Below are positions 1,026 through 54,814 of a stretch of DNA of 64,000 nucleotides, piece by piece. The DNA lies in assembly GCF_001278845.1 (NCBI RefSeq), contig NZ_CP012590.1:2728001-2792000 (forward strand). The letters are read 5' to 3'. A model generated the notes under the pieces. The model ran no database searches, was not told where the DNA came from, and saw nothing but the letters and a program-made list of their open reading frames with translations. Source of the DNA: Actinomyces sp. oral taxon 414. Its GTDB lineage: Bacteria > Actinomycetota > Actinomycetes > Actinomycetales > Actinomycetaceae. Both the position numbers and the translations under genes were made by a program. The number at the start of each line of letters is the position of its first letter. Positions within the stretch are counted from its first letter, which is position 1.

Positions 1026-2369
1026 ACAGCCCAGCCGCCCTCCCCCTCGGCCTTCCGGCGCGACGACGCCCAGCGCGCCAACCCCGCCACCATGCGCGAG
1101 CCCGCGCGCCTGGCCCGCGACACCACCCCGGACAACCCGTGGCCACTGTCCCTGCTGTCGACGAAGATCGAGGGGTACGTCTCGAAGATGACCGGCGTGT
1201 GGGTGGAGGCGCAGATCGTCCAGATCAACCGCCGCGCCGGCATGTCCTTCCTCACTCTGCGCGACGTGGACACCGAGATGTCCCTGCGCGCCGCCATCTA
1301 CCGCCGCGACCTGATGGCCGTGGAGCGGACCATGGGCGCCGAGCTCGCCGACGGGCTGCGGGTCGTGGCCCACGGGCGCCCCACCTTCTGGACGCGCGGC
1401 GGCAGCCTCCAGCTCCAGGTCGACGACGTCCGCCCCGTGGGCACGGGCGACCTGCTGGCCCGCATTGAGCAGCTGCGCCGCATTCTGGCCGCCGAGGGCC
1501 TGCTCGCCCCCGAGCGCAAGCGCCCCCTGCCCTTCACGCCGCGCGTCGTGGGGCTCGTGTGCGGGCGCGGCGCCAAGGCGAAGGACGACGTCATCGTCAA
1601 TGCCCGCCTGCGCTGGCCCGGGCTGCCCTTCGAGGTCCGCGAGGTCGCCGTCCAGGGCGTCCACGCCGTCGCCCAGGTCACCGCCGCCATCCGCGAGCTC
1701 GACGCCGACCCGCGCGTCGACGTCATTGTCGTGGCCCGCGGGGGCGGGTCGGTCGAGGACCTCCTGCCCTTCAGCGACGAGGGCCTCGTGCGCGCGGCCG
1801 CCGCCTGCCGCACCCCGCTCGTGTCCGCCATCGGCCACGAGACGGACCGGCCCCTGCTCGACGACGTCGCCGACTACCGGGCCTCCACGCCCACCGACGC
1901 CGCCCGCCGGATCGTCCCGGACCTGGCGCAGGAGACGGTGGGCCTGGACCAGGCGCGCGAGCGCATCCGCGCCGCCCTGGCCCGGCGCCTGGAGGAGGAG
2001 CAGACCCGCCTCGAGCGCGTCCGTTCGCGCCCCGTCATGGCCGACCCCACGGTCATTGTGCGGGACAAGGCCGTCGAGCTGGGCCAGGCCCGCGACCGGC
2101 TGCGCCTGGCCCTGGGCAATGCGCTCTCACTGGCCGACGCCGAGCTGCGCGCCGACCGCGCGCGCCTGACGGCCCTGTCCCCGCAGGGCGTCCTCGACCG
2201 CGGCTACGCCATCCTGCGCAAGCCCGACGGCAGCCTGGTCACGAGCGCCGAGGACGTCAAGAAGGGCGATCTGCTCGAGGGCCTCCTGGCCTCCGGCCGG
2301 CTCGTCGCCCAGGTGGTGGGCGCCACCAAACCGCCCGCCGCGTCCCCCGCCCCGCGCGACCAGCCGTAG
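1023..2369 (+). CDS. xseA: Exodeoxyribonuclease VII large subunit
   Basis: XseA is the catalytic subunit of exonuclease VII, which degrades single-stranded DNA from both ends in repair and recombination. The 448-residue product has an N-terminal OB-fold (from about residue 35, with [18 protein letters not shown]), then the nuclease core with [36 protein letters not shown] and [20 protein letters not shown], then a long charged coiled-coil region and a C-terminal segment with LDRGYAIL. Length is normal for the family. The start at GTG 1023 is chosen from the -10 spacing; GTG 1014, GTG 1017 and ATG 1092 are possible. Its partner xseB usually follows directly but here lies 799 bases downstream behind repeat elements. 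Confidence 0.96.
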
Positions 2370-2478
2370 CCGTTGACGCCGCCGGGGCGGCCGGGTCGCG
2401 GGCCCCTCCCCGCGCGACCGGCCGTGGCGCAGCGGCCTCACCGGCGGCCGCGCCCACCCGGTGTCCGCTTATCGGCCC

Positions 2479-2599
2479 GGTCCGCGAGAACGCCGGGTAA
2501 CCCGCGAGAACGTCACATAACCCGCGAGATCGCCGGGTAACCCGCGAGAACGTACCTCTAGCAGACGTTCTCGTGGGTTATGTGACGTTCTCGCGGACC
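2479..2599 (+). repeat. Family A nested hairpin repeat, copy A1
   Basis: Built from 20-bp units of the type GCGAGAACGTCACATAACCC and GCGAGATCGCCGGGTAACCC. It folds into nested stems: 2502-2523 pairs perfectly with 2575-2596 (22 bp), and inside this 2545-2553 pairs with 2565-2573 around the 11-nt loop ACCTCTAGCAG (2554-2564). The outermost 14 bases, 2479-2492, are the inverse of 2586-2599. Copies A2 (33746-33864, opposite orientation) and A3 (41215-41293) keep the same loop sequence. Confidence 0.85.
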
Positions 2600-2770
2600 G
2601 GGGCGCCTCCGCACGGGCCGGGCGGCGCTCCCGCGAGTGGTCGGACGCTTGAGAGTGGTCGTCCGAGAGTGGTCGGGCGCTCCCGCGGGCCCCGTCCGGT
2701 CGTCGGGGCGCCCGCCGCGGTCGTCTTCGACCCTACGACGCCCTTCCCCGAGGGGTCCGCGGCGGCGGAT

Positions 2771-2890
2771 TGTCCAAATCTGCCACAAAGGCCCCGATCG
2801 CGCCGGAGCGCCGGAAGAGAATCGTTGATATTCCGCGCTTCTTCTCGCCGCCGATCCCGGCTCGGAGCGCCTTTGTGGCAGATTTGGACA
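2771..2890 (+). repeat. Family B 120-bp hairpin element, copy B1
   Basis: The arms 2771-2792 and 2869-2890 are perfect 22-bp inverted repeats beginning TGTCCAAATCTGCCACAAAG. The 76-nt interior is closely similar to the reverse complement of the interior of B2 (33513-33632), with about ten differences by eye and including AGAGAATCGTTGATATTC. Both copies are exactly 120 bp. The A/T-rich arms stand out against the surrounding sequence. It could be a MITE-like element or the gene of a structured RNA; no target-site duplication is obvious. Confidence 0.8.
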
Positions 2891-3168
2891 CGCCCCGGCT
2901 CTGGACCGCCCCAGAAGCCCCACACGTCACACCGCGTTGGCGCCCCGCAGCGGCGAACCCGCACGAGAAGCGGCGACGGCGCCCCGACAGGCCATCGCCC
3001 CTCATTATCAGGGTTCATTGGTCCGGATACCGGTTCGGATCCGGATTCGAGGCGCGCGGCAGCCGGGGCGGCGTTCCGGGCGGCCTCGGTCGAGGCCGCG
3101 CAGTCGACGATGCGAACAGCTCCCCCATGTACCCACGCGCAGGACCCGGCTCATGACAGAATCGACCT

Positions 3169-3423
3169 ATGAGTCAGTCCTCCACCGCCGCCCCCTCCGC
3201 GGCCGACGACGTCGCCCGCCTGTCCTACGAGCAGGCGCGCGAGGAACTCGTGGCCGTGGTCCAGCGTCTCGAGGCCGGGCAGGTCCCGCTCGAAGAGGCC
3301 CTGGGCCTATGGGAGCGCGGCGAGGCCCTGGCCGCGCGCTGCCAGTCATGGCTGGACGAGGCGCGCAACCGCCTGGCCGCCGTCGCCCGTCAACAACCCG
3401 CGGACGCCGACGCCGAGCACTGA
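3169..3423 (+). CDS. xseB: Exodeoxyribonuclease VII small subunit
   Basis: An 84-residue protein matching the XseB family: [26 protein letters not shown] followed by [21 protein letters not shown] is the two-helix bundle that decorates the XseA coiled coil. Length is typical. ATG 3169 lacks a Shine-Dalgarno sequence but lies 6 bases after CAGAAT (3157-3162), so it may have its own promoter and a leaderless message. This fits its separation from xseA by the composite repeat block. A PfkB-type kinase gene starts 40 bases downstream and may be co-transcribed. Confidence 0.95.
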
Positions 3424-4697: not shown

Positions 4698-6011
4698 TCA
4701 GTACAGCGGCACCTCGTCGAGCATCGCGGTCACCAGTTCGGCGATGGCACTGCGCTCGGTGCACACCAGGTCGATGTGCGCGAACAGCGGATTGCCCTTG
4801 AGGGACTCCACCACGCTCGCCACCCCGTCCCAGCGCCCCACCCGCAGGTTGTCGCGCTGGGCGACGTCATGGGTGAGGACCACCTTGGAGTTGCGCCCCA
4901 CGCGCGAGAGCACCGTGAGCAGCACATTGCGCTCCAGGGACTGGGCCTCGTCGACGATGACGAAGGCGTCGTGGAAGGAGCGGCCGCGGATATGGGTCAG
5001 AGGCAGGACCTCGAGCTGACCCAGCTGGAGGATCCGGTCGATGCGCTCGCGGGGCACCACCGAGGTCAGCGTGTCGAAGACGGCCTCCGCCCAGGGCTGC
5101 ATCTTCTCCCCGGTGTCGCCGGGCAGGAAGCCCAGGGTCTGGCCGCCCACGGCGTACAGGGGCCGGAAGACCAGGACCCGCTCGTGCTCCTGACGGTCGA
5201 CGACGGCGTCGAGCCCGGCCGCCAGGGCCAGCGCCGACTTGCCGGTGCCAGCGCGCCCGCCCAACGACACAATGCCGATCTCCGGGTTGACCAGGTGGTC
5301 GATGCCGATGCGCTGCTCGGCCGAGCGGCCCCGCACCCCGAAGACCTCCCGGTCGCGGCGCACCAGGCGCAGCCCGCCCGAAACGACGGTGGCCAGCGCC
5401 GAGCCGCGCGGGGAGGTGACGACGACGCCGGTGTGCTCGGGCTGCTCGGCGAGCCGCGCCGCCGCCCCGGCGTCGGCCAGATCGGCCAGCTCCAGGCGCT
5501 CGTCGTCCCACAGCCCGTTCATCTCCTCGCCGCTCACGGACAGGTCCGTCATGCCGGTGTAGCCGGAGTCCACGGCCAGCTGGGCCCGGTACTCCTCGGC
5601 GGCCAGCCCCACGGAGGCCGCCTTGATGCGCATGGGCAGGTCCTTGGAGATGACGACGACGTCGTCGCCCTGCTCGGCCAGGGAGACGGCCGCGCTCAGG
5701 ATCCGGGTGTCGTTGTCCCCCAGGCGCATGCCGGCGGGCAGGACGGCGTCGTCGGCGCCGCCCAGCTCCACGCGCAGGGTGCCGCCCGCGTCGTTGAGCG
5801 GGACCGGGCGGTCCAGGCGCCCGTGCTTCCGGCGCAGGGCGTCGAGCAGGCGCAGGGCGGAGCGGGCGAAGTAGCCCAGCTCGGGGTGGTTGCGCTTGCC
5901 CTCCAGCTCGGTGATGACAATGACGGGCAGGACGACGGCGTGCTCGTCGAAGCGCAAGACGGCGCGGGGGTCGGATAGGAGGACGGAGGTGTCCAGGACG
6001 TAGGTGCGCAT
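4698..6011 (-). CDS. PhoH family protein with N-terminal PIN domain (PhoH2-type)
   Basis: A 437-residue protein. Residues 1 to about 130 form a PIN-type ribonuclease domain ([12 protein letters not shown] with the first acidic residue, then [11 protein letters not shown]). The C-terminal part is a PhoH ATPase with Walker [16 protein letters not shown] and Walker [13 protein letters not shown], and the family segment [18 protein letters not shown]-PhoH fusions act as ATP-dependent RNA-unwinding ribonucleases in mycobacteria; that role is inferred here. The start is ATG at 6009-6011, where the PIN domain begins. Upstream in-frame sequence is low-complexity and not counted. It shares its strand with uppS. 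Confidence 0.93.
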
Positions 6012-8728: not shown

Positions 8729-8779
8729 GCACCCGCCGCCCGCCCCCGGCGCGAGCGCGGGCCGTCCCTCCGCAAAATC

Positions 8780-8856
8780 CGCGAAACCGGCGGAAACGAC
8801 ACGCGAAACCGGCGGATATGACACGCGAGACCGGCGGAAACGACATTCGATTCGAT
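8780..8856 (-). repeat. Family C repeat, copy C1 (three units)
   Basis: Three copies of the unit whose minus-strand sequence is GTTTCCGCCGGTTTCGCG, spaced by about 22 bp, ending in the family's border sequence (read on the minus strand as GAATCGAATGTCG). It lies just after greA in the 233-base gap before msrA. Six further copies are listed below. Confidence 0.85.
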
Positions 8857-8949
8857 GCATCCCGCCGAGTTCGGCCGTCATCCGGCGCGGGGCGGACGAG
8901 GGCGGGGTTCCCGGCGGGAGCGCGAGCCCGTCCCGGCGCCGCGGGACGG

Positions 8950-11179: not shown

Positions 11180-11432
11180 GTCAGGGAGCACCACGCACCT
11201 GTAGGTGCATTGAGACACAATGATAGCTGCAATGATGCCGACGAGGAGCACCGTCAGGGAGCACCACGCACCTGTAGGTGCATTGAGACAAGACAGCGTC
11301 CGACCCATCCGTTTTTGAGGTCTCGTCAGGGAGCACCACGCACCTGTAGGTGCATTGAGACGCATCGGTCTCTTCGGCCTCCTCTCCGCCCGGCAGTCAG
11401 GGAGCACCACACACCTGTAGGTGCATTAAGAC
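11180..11432 (+). CRISPR. Orphan CRISPR array, 4 repeats and 3 spacers
   Basis: Four 37-bp repeats at 11180-11216, 11253-11289, 11325-11361 and 11396-11432 enclose spacers of 36, 35 and 34 nt (11217-11252, 11290-11324, 11362-11395). Repeats 1-3 are identical; repeat 4 has two substitutions (ACACC for GCACC, TTAAGAC for TTGAGAC), marking the distal end. The repeat starts GTCAGGGAGCACC, holds the hairpin GCACC-TGTA-GGTGC and ends ATTGAGAC, like the 5' handle of type I and III crRNAs, so transcription is probably on the plus strand. No cas genes lie within the window, so any processing must come from elsewhere or the array is a relic. Confidence 0.92.
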
Positions 11433-11467
11433 GCGCGACCGACGGTGTATCCCCAGGGGTATGTGCT

Positions 11468-17549: not shown

Positions 17550-17633
17550 GAATTGGAGCCGAAGGGGCGCTGCGACCGGCTCGCAGCCCCGAACCGGAGC
17601 CCGGCGGAGCGGCCGGCGCGCGAGACCCAGCGG

Positions 17634-17715
17634 ATACATCGAATCGAATGCAGTTTCCGCCGGTTTCGCGTGTCGTTTCCGCCGGTTTCGCGTGTCGTTT
17701 CCGCCGGTTTCGGCG
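17634..17715 (+). repeat. Family C repeat, copy C2 (three units)
   Basis: Border ATACATCGAATCGAATG, then three GTTTCCGCCGGTTTCG units at 22-bp spacing, ending 14 bases before the ilvA stop codon (17729, minus strand). This is the tidiest copy of the family. Confidence 0.88.
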
Positions 17716-17728
17716 ATAAGGGGCGGCG

Positions 17729-25225: not shown

Positions 25226-25307
25226 TGCAAGCCGGGCGTCCAGAGGCGGCCGAGGAACCCGCTCACTCCATGCACAGAGCCGGATCGGCCCAGGTCGCCC
25301 CGACCCG

Positions 25308-25366
25308 ATACATCGAATCGAATGTCGTTTCCGCCGGTCTCGCGTGCTTTTTCCGCCGGTCTTGTC
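25308..25366 (+). repeat. Family C repeat, copy C3 (left half, cut by the IS element)
   Basis: Border ATACATCGAATCGAATGTC and two GTTTCCGCCGGTCTCG-type units. The second is altered (CTTTTTCCGCCGGTC) and the array stops where the IS element begins. It continues as C4 on the other side, so the IS element lies within one array. Confidence 0.8.
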
Positions 25367-26623: not shown

Positions 26624-26652
26624 AACCTCTGCCAGAAGTCATGAGACAACAC

Positions 26653-26722
26653 AATATCCGCCGGTTTCGCGTGTCGTTTCCGCCGGTCTCGCGTGTCGTT
26701 TCCGCCGGTTTCGGCGAAGGGG
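26653..26722 (+). repeat. Family C repeat, copy C4 (right half, after the IS element)
   Basis: Three units (ATATCCGCCGGTTTCGCG, then GTTTCCGCCGGTCTCGCG, then GTTTCCGCCGGTTTCGG) end 12 bases before the ilvD stop codon (26734, minus strand). With C3 it makes a five-unit array split by the insertion sequence. Confidence 0.85.
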
Positions 26723-26733
26723 AGGGCGGGCGG

Positions 26734-28620
26734 TCAGTAGCGGGGAAGCCTGTCCAGGTCGCGCACGGCGCCCAGGTCGGCGCTGGTGGCGAGCATGGCG
26801 TAGGCGCGCAGCGCCGCGCTCACCTTGCGCGGGCGCTGAACGTGCGGGGACCAGGCGGCCTGCCCGCGCGCCTCCTCCTCGGCGCGGCGCCGGGCGATCT
26901 CGGCGTCGTCGACCATGAGCTCGATGCGCCGGGCGGGGATGTCGATCTCGATGCGGTCGCCGTCGCGCACCAGGCCGATGAGCCCGCCCGCCGCCGCCTC
27001 GGGCGAGACGTGCCCGATGCTCAGCCCCGAGGTGCCCCCCGAGAAGCGCCCGTCGGTCAGCAGCGCGCACTCCTTGCCCAGGTGCATGGACTTGATGTAC
27101 GTGGTCGGGTAGAGCATCTCCTGCATGCCCGGACCCCCGCGCGGGCCCTCGTGATTGATGACGACGACGTCGCCGGATTTCACCCGCTCGCCCAGGATCC
27201 CGGCCACGGCGTCCTCCTGGGACTCGAAGACGACCGCCGGTCCGGCGAAGGTCAGGATGGAGGCGTCCACCCCGGCGGTCTTGACGATGCAGCCCTTCTC
27301 CGCGATGTTGCCGAACAGGACCGCCAGGCCGCCGTCGGCGGAGTAGGCGTGGGCGACGTCGCGGATGCAGCCAGCCTCGCGGTCGGTGTCCAGGCAGTCC
27401 CAGCGCGACGCCTGGGAGAACATCTTGGTGGTGCGCGCCCCGGCGGGCGCGGCGAGGTAGCGGGTGCGCACCGCCTCGCCGACCCCGGAGCCGGGCGCGC
27501 CGTCGGGACCGGGGCGGGCGATGTCGTGGGCGGCCAGGACCTCGCCCAGGGTGGAGCGCAGGACGTTGCCCACGGAGGCGTCGATGAGGCCGGCGCGGTC
27601 GAGCTCGCCGAGGATGCCCATGATCCCGCCGGCCCGGTGGACGTCCTCCACGTGGTACACGGCGGTCGACGGCGCCACCTTGCACAGGTGCGGGACCCGG
27701 CGCGAGAGGCGGTCGATGTCCGCCATGTGGAAGTCGACCCCGCCCTCCTGGGCGGCGGCCAGCAGGTGCAGGACCGTGTTGGTGGACCCGCCCATGGCGA
27801 TGTCCAGGCTCATGGCGTTAGCGAAGGCCGCCTTGGTGGCGATGGAGCGCGGCAGGACGGAGGCGTCGCCGCCCTCGTAGTAGGCGCGCGTGATCTCCAC
27901 GATCTGGCGGCCCGCCTCCTTGAACAGCTCCCCGCGGTCGGCGTGGGTGGCCAGCAGGGTGCCGTTCATGGGCAGCGCCAGCCCGAGCGCCTCGGTGAGA
28001 CAGTTCATGGAGTTGGCGGTGAACATGCCCGAGCACGAGCCGCAGGTGGGGCAGGCCAGGCGCTCGATGGCACTAATGGTCTCGTCGGCCACCGTGGGGT
28101 CGGCGGCGTCCATCATGGCGTCGATGAGGTCGAGCTTGCGGGTGGCGCCGTCGGCCGTGATGAGCTTGCCCGACTCCATGGGCCCGCCGGAGATGAAGAT
28201 CGTGGGGATGTTCAGGCGCAGGGAGGCCATGAGCATGCCCGGGGTGATCTTGTCACAATTGGAGATGCACACCAGGGCGTCGGCGCAGTGGGCGGAGACC
28301 ATGTACTCCACGGAGTCGGCGATGAGGTCGCGGCTGGGCAGGGAGTAGAGCATGCCGTCGTGGCCCATGGCGATACCGTCGTCGACGGCGATGGTGTTGA
28401 ACTCCTTGGCGATGCCCCCGGCGGCCTCGATCTGCCCGGCCACCAGGCGTCCGACGTCGCGCAGGCCCACGTGTCCGGGCACGAACTGGGTGAAGGAATT
28501 GGCGATGGCGATGATCGGCTTGCCGAAGTCGGAGTCCTTGACGCCCGTGGCGCGCCACAGGGCCCGGGCACCGGCCATATTGCGGCCGGAGGTGGACGTG
28601 GCGCTGCGGTAGACGGGCAT
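26734..28620 (-). CDS. ilvD: Dihydroxy-acid dehydratase
   Basis: IlvD dehydrates 2,3-dihydroxy-acids to the 2-oxo acids of valine, isoleucine and leucine synthesis, using an Fe-S cluster and Mg. The 628-residue product is full length. Cluster cysteines are visible in [16 protein letters not shown] and [18 protein letters not shown]; other hallmarks are [34 protein letters not shown] and [13 protein letters not shown] near the C-terminus. The start is ATG at 28618-28620 with GGAGCCCCC upstream. It stands alone, followed by repeat C4 and the IS element. A 34-bp piece of its 5' coding region is duplicated at 29907-29940. Confidence 0.98.
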
Positions 28621-33309: not shown

Positions 33310-33512
33310 GGGGGCGAGCCTATCGTTCGCGCCCGGAGGCCGCCGAACCCGCGCGCCGGGCCGCGCCGCGCCGGGCCGGGGCGGGCCGGGGCGGCGTCAC
33401 CGCGACCGACCCCGGACGGGGACGGACATGTCATACTCATCACCTGGAAGGTTATTCTGGGATCGTCCGAGTGGTGCTGGTGGGACTCCTGGGACGACCC
33501 GGGGCGGGGGCG

Positions 33513-33632
33513 TGTCCAAATCTGCCACAAAGGCGCTCCGGGCCGGGATCGGCCGCGAAGAAAAGCGCCGAATATCAACGATTCTCTTCCGGCGTTCCGG
33601 CTCGATCCGGGCCTTTGTGGCAGATTTGGACA
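33513..33632 (-). repeat. Family B 120-bp hairpin element, copy B2
   Basis: The arms 33513-33534 and 33611-33632 are perfect 22-bp inverted repeats identical to those of B1. The interior is close to the reverse complement of the B1 interior, with about ten differences by eye. Confidence 0.82.
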
Positions 33633-33745
33633 ACCGGCGCCGCCGCGGGCCCTGTGGGGAGGGCGGTCGTGGACCAGGCGGGCGCCCCGTGCGACCGTGC
33701 TGGCCCCGCGGAGGTGCCGCCGCGGGCCCCGCCCAGGCGCCCCAA

Positions 33746-33864
33746 TCCGCGAGATCGCCACTTAACCCTCGAGAACGTCTGCTAGAGGTACGTTCTCGAG
33801 GGTTACCCGGCGATCTCGGCGGTTAAGTGACGTTCTCGAGGGTTACCCGGCGATCTCGCGGACC
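33746..33864 (-). repeat. Family A nested hairpin repeat, copy A2
   Basis: The inner stem 33764-33778 with 33790-33804 is 15 bp perfect (AACCCTCGAGAACGT) around the loop CTGCTAGAGGT, the reverse complement of the A1 loop. Units GGTTACCCGGCGATCTCG occur twice on the right side. Stem bases differ from A1 in a compensated way (CTCGAG for CGCGAG), so pairing is preserved. Confidence 0.85.
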
Positions 33865-33989
33865 GCCACGCCGATCCCCCACCGCCCCACACCACCGCCC
33901 ACTGAATAACCTTCCTGTTACTTCCAGTCGCCGTCCTGATCCCCGGCCCCGGGCAGAGGGCGGGGTCGGAGCGAATGAGAGGAGTCCCC

Positions 33990-41087: not shown

Positions 41088-41293
41088 GGAAGGTTATTCC
41101 GGGGGCGTCTGGGTGCGTCGAGTCCTTCTCATCGGGGAGGGGTCCCGGGACGGGGCCGGCGGGACCCGGGGATGCGCGAGATCCCCCGGACCGGTCCGGG
41201 CGGGAGCTCCCTGACGCGCGAGAACGTCACTTAACCCGCGAGAACGTACCTCTAGCAGACGTTCTCGCGGGTTGCCCGGCGCTCTCGCGGACC
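41088..41293 (+). repeat. Family A nested hairpin repeat, copy A3, with upstream border motif
   Basis: The repeat proper is 41215-41293. The inner stem AACCCGCGAGAACGT (41233-41247) pairs perfectly with 41259-41273 around the same loop as A1 (ACCTCTAGCAG, 41248-41258). No family B hairpin accompanies it. GGAAGGTTATTC (41088-41099), the 12-mer that bounds the 33.5-kb block, lies upstream. Together with C5, these fill the 465-base gap between the response regulator gene and pth. Confidence 0.8.
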
Positions 41294-41404
41294 GCGGCGG
41301 GCGCCCCGCCCCGGATCCCGCTCGACTCACGGCGAGAAAGGCGCGCCCCACGGGCCCACGGCCGATGAATCGACGAGCCGGCCGCGGCCCGCCAACCCAC
41401 TCCA

Positions 41405-41463
41405 ATACATCGAATCGTATGTCGTTTCCGCCGGTTTCGCGTGTCGTTTCCGCCGGTTTCGCG
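41405..41463 (+). repeat. Family C repeat, copy C5 (two units)
   Basis: Border ATACATCGAATCGTATGTC, then two GTTTCCGCCGGTTTCGCG units, ending six bases before the pth stop codon (41469, minus strand). The border is nearly palindromic here. Confidence 0.87.
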
Positions 41464-46172: not shown

Positions 46173-46247
46173 ATGAGCGATGATGGCCCAAGGACCTGGG
46201 AAGCGGCTCCATGCCTCGCTGCCGCGTTGCTCACCCGTCCCCGTCGC

Positions 46248-46302
46248 CGAAACCGGCGGAAACGACACGCGAAACCGGCGGAAACGACATTCGATTCGAT
46301 GT
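46248..46302 (-). repeat. Family C repeat, copy C6 (two units)
   Basis: On the minus strand: border ATCGAATCGAATGTC, then two GTTTCCGCCGGTTTCG units. It lies in the 369-base gap between eno and ftsB, 76 bases before the ftsB start. It is the one copy placed ahead of a gene rather than at a 3' end. Confidence 0.85.
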
Positions 46303-46388
46303 ACTGCACAGATGCCCGCCGGTCCGCGCGCAGGAAGGCGGTCACGACGTCGGCCCCGCCCTCGCGCCCCGTTCGCCGGCCCGCGCGA

Positions 46389-48618: not shown

Positions 48619-48738
48619 GCTAGCCCTCCGCCCGCCCGGGCGCGGCCCAGTCGGGGTCGGGCCCGCCGCCGACACCGCCGCCCCGCCGCCACCCGCGCGC
48701 TCGCGGACCCGGACGGGCGCTCGCGGAACCAACCCGCA

Positions 48739-48802
48739 CTTTCCGCCGGTCTCGCGTGTCGTTTCCGCCGGTTTCGCGTGTCGTTTCCGCCGGTCTCGGT
48801 GA
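48739..48802 (+). repeat. Family C repeat, copy C7 (three units)
   Basis: Three units (TTTCCGCCGGTCTCGCG, GTTTCCGCCGGTTTCGCG, GTTTCCGCCGGTCTCGG) end 20 bases before the mfd stop codon (48822, minus strand). The left border sequence is missing. Confidence 0.85.
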
Positions 48803-48821
48803 AAAGGAGGAGGGGGGAGGG

Positions 48822-51800
48822 TCAGCGGCGACGCCGGTAGGCGGTGGCTTCCGTCTCATAGGCGGGATCGCCCTCGACGACGGCGCGCAGGAGCACCTCG
48901 GCCCAGCGCAGCAGCGCCTCGCCCTCCACCGGCCCGGCGCCCATACGGGCGGCCCCGGGCGCGGGCACCACGATCGTGCGGGTCGCCGGCTTGAGCGTGG
49001 TCCCCGGGTACAGGCGCGTCAGACGCAGCCGCCCCGACTCGGCCAGCTCCACCGGGGCCAGGCGCACCGACTTGCCCTGGGCGACGATCTCGCGCACCCC
49101 CAGGCGGGCCGCCAGCGCCCGCAGCCGCGCCAGGGCCGCCAAGCGCCGGACCGGCTCGGGCACGGCCCCGTAGCGGTCGGCGAGCTCGTCGAGCACGTCC
49201 TCGACATCGGCGTCGCTGCGCGCGGCGGCGAACTTGGTGTAGGCCTCCAGGCGCAGGCGCTCGTGGGGCACGTAATCCTCGGGGATGGTGGCGTCCACGG
49301 GCAGCTCGACGCGCAGGTCCTGGTCGATCTGCGCCTCGGTCCCGCCGTCACCGTCATCGCCCCCGGCCTTGAGGGCCTTTTTGTAGGCGGTCACGGCCTC
49401 GGCGACCATACGCACGTACAGGTCGAAGCCGACCCCGGCGATGTGCCCGGACTGCTCCCCGCCCAACAGATTGCCAGCACCGCGGATCTCCAGGTCTTTC
49501 ATGGCCACCTGCATGCCCGCCCCCAGGTCGGTATTGGCGGCAATGGTGCGCAGCCGCTCCAGGGCGGTCTCGGTCAGGGGCCTGTCGGCCGGGTGCAGGA
49601 AGTAGGCGTAGGCGCGCTCGCGCCCGCGGCCCACGCGCCCGCGCAACTGGTGGAGCTGGCTCAGCCCCATGCGGTCGGCCCGGTCGACAATGAGGGTGTT
49701 GGCGTCCGTCACGTCCAGGCCGGTCTCCACAATCGTGGTGCACACCAGCACATCGATCTTCTTGCGCCAGAAGTCGTCAATGATCCTCTCCAGGCGCGAC
49801 TCGCCCATCTGCCCGTGGGCGACGGCGACCCTCGCCTCGGGCACCGTCTCGGCCAGGCGGGAGGCGACGGCGTCAATGTCCTCCACCCGGTTGTGGACGT
49901 AGAAGACCTGACCCTCGCGCAGCAGCTCGCGGCGGACGGCGGCGCGGACCTGCCCCTCCTCGTAGGCGCCCACGTAAGTGAGGATGGGGTGGCGGTCCTC
50001 GGGCGGGGTGGCCAGGGTGGACATCTCCCGCAGGCCGGTCACCGCCATCTCCAGGGTGCGTGGAATGGGCGTGGCCGACATGGCCAGGACATCGACGTCG
50101 GTGCGCAGGGCCTTGAGAGTCTCCTTGTGCTCCACCCCGAAGCGCTGCTCCTCGTCGATAATGACCAGCCCCAGGTCCTTGAAGCGCACCCGCCCGGTGA
50201 TCAGGCGGTGCGTGCCGATGACGACGTCGACGCTCCCGTCGGCCAGGCCCGCCAGAACCTGGGCGGAGGCGGCGGCGTCCTGGAAGCGGGAGAGCTGGGC
50301 CACCCGCACGGGGAAACCGGCGTAGCGCTCGGTGAAGGTCTCGGTGTGCTGGCTCACGAGCAGGGTGGTGGGCGCCAGGACGGCGACCTGCTTGCCGTCG
50401 GCCACCGCCTTGAAGGCGGCGCGCACGGCGATCTCGGTCTTGCCGTAGCCCACGTCGCCGCAGATGAGCCGGTCCATGGGCCGGGACCGCTCCATGTCCG
50501 CCTTGACCTCGTCAATGGTCACCAGCTGGTCGGGGGTCTCGGTGTAGGGGAAGGACTCCTCCAGCTCGGACTGCCAGGGCGTGTCGGGGCCGAAGGCGTG
50601 GCCGGTGGCGGCGGCGCGGGCGGCGTAAAGGCGCACGAGCTCCCCGGCGATCTCCCGCACGGCCCGCCGGGCCCTGGACTTGGTCCGGGCCCAGTCCGCC
50701 CCGCCCATCCGGTTCAGGGCGGGGGCGTCGCCGCCGACGTACTTGGACACCTGGTCCAGGGCGTCGGTGGGCACCAGGAGCCGGTCACCGGGCTGGCCGC
50801 GCCGGGAGGGGGCGTACTCGATGACGACGTACTCGCGGGTGGCGGCGCTCCGCCCGCCGCCGACCCTCCGGCGCAGGAGCTCGACGAAACGCCCCACGCC
50901 GTGCTGGGCGTGGACGACGAGGTCGCCGGGGCGCAGCGAGAGCGGGTCGACGCTGCGGCGGGCGCGGCGGGCGGGCAGGGCCTTGCGCTCGCGGGGGGCG
51001 GCGCCGGCCCGCCCGGTCAGGTCGGACTCGGCGATGAGGGCCAGGCGCAGTCCCTCGGCGATGAAACCGTGGCCGGCGCCGGCCCGGGTGACACGCACGA
51101 CGCCGTCGCCGCTCAGGGTCCCGTCGGCGGCGACTTCGCCCAGGTCGGCGGGCTCGTCCAGGCGGGTGACTATGCGGGCGGGCACGCCGCCGTCGGACAG
51201 CAGGGAGGCCATGCGCCTGCCGGGGCCGGGCCCGTCGGTGGCGACGACGACGCTCCAGCCCGCGCGCGCCAGGGCCCCCAGGTCGGCGACGGCCTCGTCG
51301 AGCCGGCCGGCGTAGCCGCGCGGGTCCCGCAGGGGCAGTTCGAGCGCGTCCGGGCCGGCCTTGAGGGAGGTGAAGTCCCACCAGCCGCGGCCGGTGGACA
51401 GGGCCAGGTCGCGGGTCTGCCCGAGGGGGGCGAAGGCGGCGGCGGACAGGTCCACGGGGGCCCGGCCCCCGGAGGCGGCCGAGGTCCAGGCGGCGGCGAG
51501 GAATTCGGCGGTCGTGGCCACGAGGTCCTCGGCGCGCCGACGCAAGCGCTCGGGCTCCAGGGCCACGACGAGGCGATCGCCGACCAGGTCGAGCAGCGGC
51601 ACCATGCGCCCGGCCAGGACGGGGGCGAGGGACTCCATGCCCTCGCACCCGATCCCCTCGGCGATCCTGCCCAGCATGTCGGCGGCGCCGGGGATGGAGC
51701 CGGCCAGTTCCCGGGCCCGGGAGCGCACGGCGTCGGTGAGCAGCAGCTCGCGGCAGGCGGTGGCGGTGACGGCGCCGACCTCCTCGATGGTGCGCTGGTC

Positions 51801-52630: not shown

Positions 52631-52668
52631 GCCGGCGATTCGCGTCGCCTTTTAAGAACCCTGTCCGC

Positions 52669-54597
52669 TCAGACCCGGGCCTTACGACGACGGTGCACCA
52701 CCATCATCGCACCGCCGCCCAGGGCGCCGCCGGCAACCAGCAGCGGCACCAGGACGTTCGCGCCCGTCGAGGCCAGCGAGTTGCCGGGCTTCGGGGTCGG
52801 GCTGGACGTCACCGGGGTCGGAGGCGGTGTCGTCGGGACGGGCACCGCCGGGTTGTTCGGGTTGGGGTTCGGATTCGGGTTCGGATTCGGGTTGGGGTTG
52901 GGGTTCGGATTCGGGTTGGGGTTGGGGTTCGGGTTGGGGTTCGGATTCGGGTTGGGGTTGGGGTTCGGGTTCGGGTTGGGGTTCGGGTTCGGGTTGGGGT
53001 TCGGGTTCGGGTTGGGGTTCGGGTTCGGGTTGGGGTTCGGCGGCGTCGGCGTGAGCGTCGCCGTGTTGGTCAGCGTGACCGCGGTGGCCTTCTGATCCTC
53101 GATGTTGAAGGAGTCGGTCACAGCACCGTTCTCCCCGCCAATGATGAAGACCGGGTCGCCCCAGGTGTATCCGTCGGGCACCGGAGAGGCGCTGGACGTG
53201 TCCTCGCTCAGCGTGATCTTGGTCCCCGCGGGGAAGGTCCCTGGGAAGGTGACCGCCTCGCCGAGCGTGACCTTCATGGTCGCAGAGCCGGTCTTGTTGT
53301 CCGGCTTCAGCGTCCCCGGCGCCTCCCATCCCTGGTAGGTGTTGGCGGGTTTGGGCAGGACGTAGTCGATCGTGACCTCGAAGGTGGCCCCGGCGGGGAT
53401 CTTGTTGGCCGCGTCGCCGCCGGCCTTCTTGAGGATGTTGAACCCGCCGTAGCCGGCGGCCATCTCGACGTCGACCGTGAAGGTCACGGTGTAGGCCTGG
53501 GTGTCGGAGGCCGACACCCCGTTGGGCAGGGAGACCGTGTTCTTGTACTCAACGCCCTTGACCGCCCTGCCGGTGTCGGAGGTGAACTCCGACCGGTAGA
53601 AGAGCCGGTAATTGGCGCCCGCCTGGAAGGGACCGGTGACCTTGATGGTGGCGACGTCGTCCTTGATCTCGACCGAGAGGTCGAAGTCGCCGTGCTCGAC
53701 GGTGAAGTCCTTGCCCGCGGCGTTGGTCAGGGTGACGCCGTCGTCGGGGTAGGGGTCCTTGTTCTGGCCCCAGTACTGCAGCTCCCACTGACTCGGGTCC
53801 TGGGAGAACTGCGAGCCCGCGCCGAGGGTGTCGGTGAAGGTGATGGTGCTGCGCGTGGTGCCGTCGGTCGCCACGGGCGCGTCGGTGCCCGCCATCTGCT
53901 GGGAGATGTAGTCCGCTCCGAAGTCGACCTCCCAGTAGATGTTCCTCGAGTTCTCACCAATGACCGAGCCGATCTTGTTCATCTGCCAGGCGACGGGGTC
54001 GTGGGGCTGGATACCGCCGGTGCCGGGCAGGTCCACCTGCACGGAGTTGCCGTTGACGGTCATATTCGTCGTCTCGTCGGTGGTCTGGCTCATGACCAGC
54101 AGCAGCGCGCTGGTGGTCCCCTTGAAGTTGGTGAACCCGGCGGCCTTGAGCTCATCGAGCTTGCTGTTGAAGGTGCACGTCACCATCGTCTTGTCCAAGG
54201 TGCACGTGCCCACCTCCGTGAGCTCGCCGTTGTAGGTGACCGACATCGACGCGGTCTGGGGCTGCACGAGGTTGTTGAAGTAGCCGCCCAGGTTGATGCT
54301 GAAGTCATCGCCCGACTTGGGGTTGGCGCCGGTGGCGTCCCAGGTGAAGCTCAGCTTGGCGATGTCCTTGACCTTGAGGGGGCCTTCGAGGTCCGCCCCG
54401 GATCTGTCGGACTTGGTCAGGGTGAGATCGGTGACCTTGATGCCCGTATTGACGTCGGCGCGCGCCGGGGCGCTCAGACCCGGCAGGACGAGGGCGAGTG
54501 AGGCGAGGGCGGTCAGGAGCGCAAGCACAACGACGTCCACCCGCCTTCGCGTCCTCGCTTCAAGGATCCGCCCGACGGGCGAGGTGGGTTCACGCAT
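52669..54597 (-). CDS. Cell-wall-anchored adhesin/pilin-like protein with DUF5979 domain and Asn-Pro stalk
   Basis: A 642-residue surface protein: signal peptide (to about residue 46, ending in SAPARA), an adhesin-like N-terminal region of about 300 residues ([54 protein letters not shown]), a DUF5979-like domain (about 360-490, [33 protein letters not shown]), a stalk of about 30 Asn-Pro dipeptides, then [17 protein letters not shown], the sorting signal SLASTG, a membrane segment and RRRKARV. It is likely a wall-anchored adhesin with isopeptide-type domains. ATG at 54595-54597 follows AGGAGTACTG; no sortase or other pilin gene is adjacent. Confidence 0.88.
52857..53040. repeat. 6-bp repeat tract encoding the Asn-Pro stalk
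   Basis: GGGTTC, GGGTTG and GGATTC hexamers (plus strand) are repeated about 30 times, encoding Asn-Pro dipeptides. Loss or gain of units changes stalk length without breaking the frame. Confidence 0.9.
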
Positions 54598-54814
54598 CAG
54601 TACTCCTAGGGAAGAGATATGAGCATCTGTCTCGGGAGACGGAGGCTTGGGACAATGCCCGCGCGCAGCCCACTCAAGGGCGCCGGGGCCCAACCAGGGT
54701 AGAGGCCCGCCGATAGAAAATTGTGACCGATAGACGATCGCTACCCAATCGTGATCTGACTGTGACAATTCGAGTGGCCGGGCCCACGTTTCCGGGGCGT
54801 GCGGCGCTTCGAGT

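Follow-up and report, generated by a model that had tools for sequence, protein, structure and literature searches.

The repeats closest to those analysed here belong to several described groups. REPINs, according to the available portion of PMC3116915, consist of two inverted conserved ends with a spacer whose length matters, and they are extragenic and present in many copies. The ERIC/IRU (127 bases), YPAL, RPE and Correia/NEMIS repeats, as set out in the part of PMC2229807 at hand, mostly have TA termini and target duplications. Known IS5-type MITEs have ends in common with transposase-coding elements, a short target duplication, no coding capacity and many near-identical, mostly intergenic copies, and the block described below resembles them in each of these respects. 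The accessible part of PMC3672468 mentions MITEs for Porphyromonas only, and a literature search by title and abstract opening, which covered subscription papers only in small part, returned no description of module A, module B or this MITE in Actinomyces.

The window, i.e. the entire 64,000-nucleotide stretch analysed, spans positions 2728001-2792000 of the single-contig genome (3,836,419 bases) of Actinomyces sp. oral taxon 414, hereafter the window genome. A preliminary description had drawn attention to two mirror-image copies, at 2.5 kb and 33.5 kb, of a block combining two hairpin families, A and B, and had taken it for either a non-autonomous mobile element or a two-part structured RNA locus, without matching it to a known class. 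We consider it highly probable that the block is an IS5-type MITE carrying A and B, which gives it a class, and that B is most likely a DNA element that moves, or once moved, in its own right. Once its ends and target duplications are recognised, the block is ordinary. Module B is not: it is non-coding, keeps to 119-121 bases across the genus and at least one related genus, and has no recognised mobiliser.

The two copies in the window and their ends

The features of the two copies, and of a third occurrence of A, are the following:

33447..33914, minus strand (oriented by B): complete composite element of 468 bases, read as an IS5-type MITE with A and B from its exact ends GAAGGTTATTC/GAATAACCTTC, the CTG duplication and alignment with other full-length copies
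33447..33457, plus strand: terminal inverted repeat GAAGGTTATTC, B-side end; the same end is found on ~880-base IS5-type elements
33904..33914, minus strand: terminal inverted repeat, A-side end
33444..33446, no strand: 3-base target duplication CTG, first copy
33915..33917, no strand: 3-base target duplication CTG, second copy
33513..33632, minus strand: module B, a 120-base three-block palindromic element
33746..33865, minus strand: module A, a hairpin of ~20-base units with a GTACCTCTAGCAGAC loop
2478..2602, plus strand: module A of degraded copy 1 (repeat scan, alignment, folding)
2603..2770, plus strand: spacer of copy 1, partly homologous to the copy 2 spacer (alignment)
2771..2890, plus strand: module B of copy 1 (arms 2771-2791 and 2870-2890, core near 2819-2842)
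2891..2925, plus strand: right tail of copy 1, with homologues in other copies but no terminal repeat that can be recognised
41187..41299, plus strand: third A copy, without B (repeat scan, A loop pattern)
41089..41099, plus strand: lone terminal repeat GAAGGTTATTC on the left side of the third A copy; B absent

Alignment of 2370-3010 with the reverse complement of 33400-33930, together with a repeat scan of the window, bears out that A and B occur twice in opposite orientation, with inverted arms at 2765-2923/33480-33638 and 2478-2620/33723-33865 (88% each). In the same alignment the flanks of the two copies are homologous, as had been claimed, while the spacers are so only in part, copy 2 at 33.5 kb being without about 55 bases of the copy 1 spacer. 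The 12-base inverted repeat reported around the 33.5-kb copy is real (GGAAGGTTATTC at 33446-33457, complement at 33904-33915). The span originally given, 2479-2925, covers the core of the copy that has decayed; the complete one lies at 33447-33914. The best match to the terminal repeat within 2301-3050 has 4 mismatches in 11 positions, and the lack of a recognisable end marks the 2.5-kb copy as a relic. For the lone repeat at 41089-41099 no facing end is found nearby at up to 2 mismatches, and the stretch 41089-41299 is probably a truncated A-only MITE. The block had been said to encode no evident protein; none of the six ORFs in or across the two blocks matches a Pfam family, and among ORFs of at least 90 aa wholly within the 468-base element the longest has 104 aa (33471-33785). 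Modules A and B both fold far better than 200 dinucleotide shuffles (z -7.3 to -9.8 over six folded strands, 0/200 as good).

The proposal of a non-autonomous mobile element is borne out by ends shared with transposase-coding elements and by 3-base target duplications. The exact end pattern GAAGGTTATTCNG has 87+72 matches in the window genome (reversed control 0), and among the 100 matches listed there are three end pairs about 880 bases apart. Transposase sequence is present in the ~880-base elements of the window genome, with matches to Pfam HTH_Tnp_4 and DDE_Tnp_4 that are above cut-off in L204 and L205; none of the three elements examined combines the HTH region with a full DDE domain in one frame. 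Across the genus, GAAGGTTATTCNGNG is present in 16 of 49 genomes and abundant only in the window genome (G000, 75+64) and A. dentalis (G005, 33+26), and pairs 863-884 bases apart occur, among the matches listed, in G004, G018, G020, G022, G023, G030 and G031. Ten long elements of 863-884 bases were obtained from other genus genomes (L272-L281, two of them from G005). L272 has a single intact transposase frame of 278 aa, and identical 3-base flanks border six of the ten (L272, L274, L276, L277, L278 and L281), the other four (L273, L275, L279 and L280) having no matching flanks. The NCBIfam IS5 models are the best matches yet stay below their cut-offs (IS5_4 gives 70.6 bits for L272, cut-off 140), so that the filing under IS5 rests on the Pfam domains, the ends and the 3-base duplications. 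Since its ends are common to the ~880-base IS5-type insertion sequences of this genome and its relatives, we read the block as a non-autonomous IS5-type MITE.

Across 142 fetched stretches there are 39 elements of 250-700 bases between facing ends (at most 1 mismatch per end, each left end joined to its nearest partner). Identical 3-base flanks border 18 of them, whereas 5000 shuffles of the flanks averaged 4.0 and never exceeded 12; the other 21 have no matching flanks. The facing ends GAAGGTTATTC...GAATAACCTTC enclose several kinds of element, namely B without A, A with B, A only, and elements alike only in their ends. Eleven of the B-bearing, A-less elements measure 533-535 bases and align closely, while those with both modules measure about 390-580 bases. 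In a B-centred alignment the homology to the right of B continues for about 55 bases, reaching GAATAACCTTC in many copies. Thus, with unlike left halves and a common right half (B, the ~55-base tail and the end), the B-bearing elements form a mosaic family. Plasmid and phage collections contain no match to the composite. At the right ends of L077, L166 and L171 two end-bounded elements abut with just 3 bases between them, which suggests insertion beside an existing end.

We would picture a transposase encoded elsewhere moving the miniature element in trans by its GAAGGTTATTC ends and thereby generating the 3-base target duplication. The two copies in the window arose by separate insertion events, that at 33.5 kb being intact and that at 2.5 kb decayed; the mirror image comes down to their opposite orientation, and A and B are cargo carried by the MITE.

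Other repeats are also present in the window. A CRISPR-like array at 11180-11435 has four ~37-base repeats (GTCAGGGAGCACCACGCACCTGTAGGTGCATTGAGAC) with unlike spacers of ~35 bases. A third repeat family of tandem 22-base units (TTTCCGCCGGTTTCGCGTGTCG) occurs at 8777-8862, 17632-17717, 25307-25366, 26652-26758, 41403-41463, 46235-46306 and 48737-48843; in five places a head, TACATCGAATCGAATG, stands beside the units, giving an A-like build with a different unit. Finally, a long minisatellite of GGGTTCGGGTT-like units at 52819-53094 lies within a predicted gene (52668-54768).

Linkage and distribution of modules A and B

The A loop pattern (up to 3 mismatches) is matched 74 times in the window genome (reversed control 0). 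With up to 2 mismatches it has 38+35 matches there (G000) and 34+34 in A. dentalis (G005), and at most one in any of the remaining 47 genus genomes (reversed controls 0 to 8 per strand). Within the genus sample A is a module of two species, the window genome and A. dentalis. The B arm pattern (up to 3 mismatches) has 116+118 matches in the window genome, i.e. ~117 copies (reversed control 0). In a scan of a genome collection, exact matches to this arm came from A. dentalis, A. gerencseriae, oral taxon 448 and A. johnsonii; one Ignavibacteria contig with the exact arm is excluded from all later counts. A covariance model derived from 23 B sequences, with 17 candidates scored per genome under stricter filters, matches 49 of 213 Actinomycetaceae genomes, comprising 36 of the 49 in the genus and 13 of the 164 elsewhere in the family. 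The latter belong to the genera g8 (2 genomes), g27 (10) and g31 (1). In g27 and g31 these are model matches alone (E 1.7e-8 to 4.1e-4), while the one g8 locus fetched, L271, has a clear B in its sequence. One B pattern was also run against viral contigs and had no match there. The two modules can therefore be separated: B, the older, stands alone throughout the genus as well as in some related genera and is family-wide, whereas A is confined to two species.

Far from never being linked in other copies, A and B lie within 300 bases of each other in 25 of the 74 A copies of the window genome, against 1.35 expected, and within 600 bases in 30 (2.68 expected); the set used, 74 A and at least 118 B positions, is near-complete, with one B copy at 3637132 outside it. 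The A-B spacing clusters near 265-274 and 195-220 bases, and many of the pairs lie between facing ends. In A. dentalis (G005), 15 of the 68 A copies are within 500 bases of a listed B, where about 1.4 would be expected. As a general account, the idea that A and B are unrelated neighbours is refuted by this linkage; although the 44 of 74 A copies with no B within 600 bases would suit it, we give a chance juxtaposition of unrelated repeats virtually no credence. Among the 25 pairs within 300 bases, B points away from A in all 21 in which its strand is known.

Several copies have parts in reversed orientation. Relative to B, the asymmetric A loop is turned round in 10 of the 25 closely linked pairs (e.g. 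L091, L165 and L077). Of 115 B copies in the window genome, 4 (L076, L114, L167 and L180) have an interior that runs the opposite way with respect to the tail, with one further copy undecided. Both look like a possible inversion between hairpin arms.

Outside the window genome, IS5-type ends (up to 1 mismatch) are found within 700 bases of B at 2 of 49 loci, L224 and L228, both from A. dentalis. When non-orthologous loci are compared two by two, the homology mostly begins close to the start of B and extends some 35-65 bases past one side; at some loci it also covers ~35 bases on the other. Going by the common right half, an IS5-type MITE of the window species may have captured B, both then multiplying to about 117 B copies; such a capture would explain their number in this one species. 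A diverged B type is present at one site in both L176 (window genome) and L230 (A. dentalis), with the same right flank; the left flank of L230 is unlike that of L176 right up to the B arm.

Architecture and placement of module B

The length of B is nearly invariant. In the window genome it is 120 bases in 112 of 115 copies (111 with slightly different detection). Elsewhere it is 120 bases in 44 and 121 in 12 of 56 copies, a set that includes some orthologues and the same place twice (L240/L244). Further stretches of G001, G032 and G009 supply 13 copies of 120 (8) or 121 bases (5), which may repeat loci already counted, and two model matches in G009 span 119 bases, giving a range of 119-121. 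The plan consists of 21-base inverted arms and a central dyad, whose core AWCSKYGRWATYMYGCGGTT sits on the symmetry axis, separated by spacers that are constant in length but weakly conserved in sequence. The information content, computed from 49 ungapped sequences (44 from outside and 5 from the window genome), follows this plan: 1.51 bits at positions 1-21, 0.41 at 22-48, 1.23 at 49-72, 0.47 at 73-99 and 1.54 at 100-120.

The two arms change together. Across 42 ungapped sequences, none of them from the window genome, Watson-Crick pairing between the arms reaches 95%, and at positions 6, 7, 10, 11, 13, 14, 15 and 20 pairing is clearly commoner within than between sequences (e.g. 0.95 versus 0.39 at position 11, 0.88 versus 0.29 at 13 and 0.83 versus 0.33 at 14). 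Arms that are unlike between species have changed on both sides; for instance, between G031 and G014 the base pair at arm position 11 differs on both sides with few other changes. The arm triplets of the window genome are CCA/CCA in 91, TTG/TTG in 20 and other in 4 copies (n=115), counts that are not independent because many of these copies multiplied inside the MITE. In A. dentalis, L220 and L224 have hybrid arms.

Such covariation, along with the very stable folds of A and B, might be taken to indicate that the A-B locus, or B alone, is a structured RNA, e.g. a multi-copy small RNA. RNAalifold on the 23 sequences predicts two short interior helices in B (columns 35-38/63-66, paired in 85%, and columns 86-88/95-98, paired in 77%). 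Of the 7 pairs in these helices 6 change on both sides, which a pure DNA reading does not predict. The whole structure has 10 two-sided pairs against 7.2 in shuffles (14/500 as high), and a covariation score of 0.207, arms included, against 0.114 (0/500). In the 42-sequence set the interior column pairs 29-77, 29-94, 54-68 and 50-62 exceed expectation. However, the helices derive from the same alignment, each interior pair is broken in 3-7 of the 23 sequences, and column 29 scores with two different partners, as subfamily structure would give. At positions 21-45 mirror-register complementarity is 0.29 (rows not all re-oriented by the core), no better than in shifted registers, so that a constant-register fold-back of the interior is not seen. 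Nor is there a consistent excess of G-U pairs: arm mismatches in the window genome comprise 8 G-T against 36 A-C, the final arm position accounting for 23 of the 61 mismatches, while those in other genomes comprise 23 G-T against 17 A-C. Moreover, A is numerous in only 2 of the 49 genus genomes where B is found in 36, and neither has an Rfam match at the gathering cut-off, sub-threshold hits being to microRNA families only. Hence, the two-part RNA locus of the preliminary description finds little support, and we regard an RNA explanation as improbable.

The combination of fixed spacing, a largely free spacer, a dyad core on the same axis and paired arm changes points instead to DNA read by proteins at three sites. 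We infer that the arms and centre of B would be bound by proteins as DNA, at three fixed candidate sites. Our tentative proposal, possible though held with low confidence, is that B is a REPIN-like, dyad-symmetric DNA unit of 120 bases, moved or maintained by a putative non-Y1 enzyme that reads all three sites. If true, the switching of the recognition sequence between species, on both arms and over most of a genome's copies, is what enzyme-site co-evolution would be expected to yield. B would then be a testable case of repeat-enzyme co-evolution outside REPIN/RAYT, with its natural arm variants as ready-made specificity data.

The sites occupied by B bear on its mobility. At a pentapeptide-gene/FtsX-permease site, a joined-flank search found B in 11 related genomes, of 120 bases in the ten aligned and with unlike arms in several of the species; in G035 one flank only was matched. 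At the same site in G023 B is absent and flank runs into flank with no visible duplication, the flanks at this junction having diverged. From one site this could be either a precise loss or the pre-insertion state, and B may insert or be lost without target duplication. The retention of B at common sites across species indicates stability rather than current mobility.

B also lies mostly outside genes: 1 of 115 copies lies within a predicted gene, against 3984 of 5000 random window positions. The 56 classifiable sites comprise 25 convergent, 22 tandem and 9 divergent gaps, where 161 of 1016 random intergenic positions are convergent; gene context was called by a crude codon-usage script, which left 58 of the 115 sites unclassified with a neighbour beyond the stretch. 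With longer flanks, the 30 best window-genome copies are tandem in 9, convergent in 8, divergent in 3 and unclassified in 10 cases, while 47 loci outside the window genome (L220-L271 less L225, L234, L242, L243 and L244) are tandem in 14, convergent in 10, divergent in 4, within a predicted gene in 5 and unclassified in 14. Either selection against gene damage or a function at gene ends could account for this placement. Bias of B towards one replication strand is weak, with a Fisher p of 0.037-0.092 according to which terminus is assumed, and we make no claim of it.

Two neighbourhoods deserve mention in their own right. Window copy 1 and L253 both lie in an xseA-xseB-pfkB neighbourhood, with B in different gaps, and we dismissed the resemblance as coincidence; the xseB frames were named by the mutual likeness of the two loci, the window frame at 3168-3423 being without a Pfam hit. 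In L261 and L268, from two genomes, B lies 20 bases upstream of the start of the same gene, whose L261 product matches dapB; judged from its position, this site is a candidate for an effect of B on gene expression.

The fixed length despite diverged spacers, the two-sided arm changes over most copies in a genome, the persistence at one site in 11 genomes and the intergenic, often convergent placement could also be those of a host-selected protein-binding site (nucleoid, termination or regulatory) whose arms track a species-specific protein. Yet the number of copies falls from ~117 to no model match in 13 of the 49 genus genomes, under the stricter filters, so that B looks dispensable; no conserved neighbour gene emerged among 20 nearby proteins at 13 loci, and the intergenic bias is equally predicted by selection against gene damage. 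We find a binding site of this kind rather doubtful.

A further alternative is that B is a classical DDE-transposon MITE with an autonomous partner of its own bearing TGTCC...CAAANG ends. Its near-perfect inverted ends, which start with TG and end with CA, and its dispersed, intergenic copies would agree with that. Against it, duplications are lacking at the one filled/empty site pair and in flanks read by eye, and the half-sites in the fetched stretches of the window genome (up to 5 mismatches) are paired at a fixed distance in 115 cases and unpaired in 9, which makes no longer element evident there. A constant length with a strongly diverged interior is also unusual for a deletion derivative. 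A DDE-type origin thus appears unlikely.

Module B and the composite among known elements

Among described repeats, B resembles REPINs, which in the portion of PMC3116915 available are likewise symmetric, ~100 bases long and intergenic, with conserved inverted ends, a spacer of constrained length, compensatory changes and many copies. This common plan invites the reading that a RAYT (Y1) transposase moves B as a REPIN. However, PF01797 (Y1_Tnp) matches 0 of the 49 genus genomes, the control being positive in 5 of 14 named genomes, and the TGTCC...CAAANG arms, read from the sequences, have no internal palindrome and are not REPs. The want of a Y1 match at Pfam sensitivity and the non-palindromic arms speak against REPIN/RAYT membership, which we judge very improbable. 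B differs from REPINs, moreover, in its conserved central dyad at the symmetry axis and in lacking a constant-register interior hairpin. We accordingly file it as an unassigned, REPIN-like element, set apart from REPINs by transposase and by the nature of its arms.

With the ERIC/IRU, YPAL, RPE and Correia/NEMIS repeats, as the accessible part of PMC2229807 presents them, B has in common its size, its intergenic palindromes and a dispersed, MITE-like occurrence. It departs from ERIC-type repeats in its TG...CA termini, in having no duplication at the one tested site, in its GC-rich host and in arms that switch as a pair from one species to another. Among RNAs, Actinomyces-1 RNA (Rfam RF02928) is also a non-coding family of Actinomyces and of similar size (110 model positions), from which A and B are set apart by having no gathering-level match to it. 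A match to this RNA is present in L226 of A. gerencseriae, at 4925-5033, away from the B copy of that locus.

As for the composite, it differs from known IS5-type MITEs in carrying two strong hairpin modules, in the several combinations of its left half that make the family a mosaic, and in a transposase whose matches to the IS5 models stay under the NCBI cut-offs. It is also unlike them in that one of its cargoes, B, is an older, independent element.
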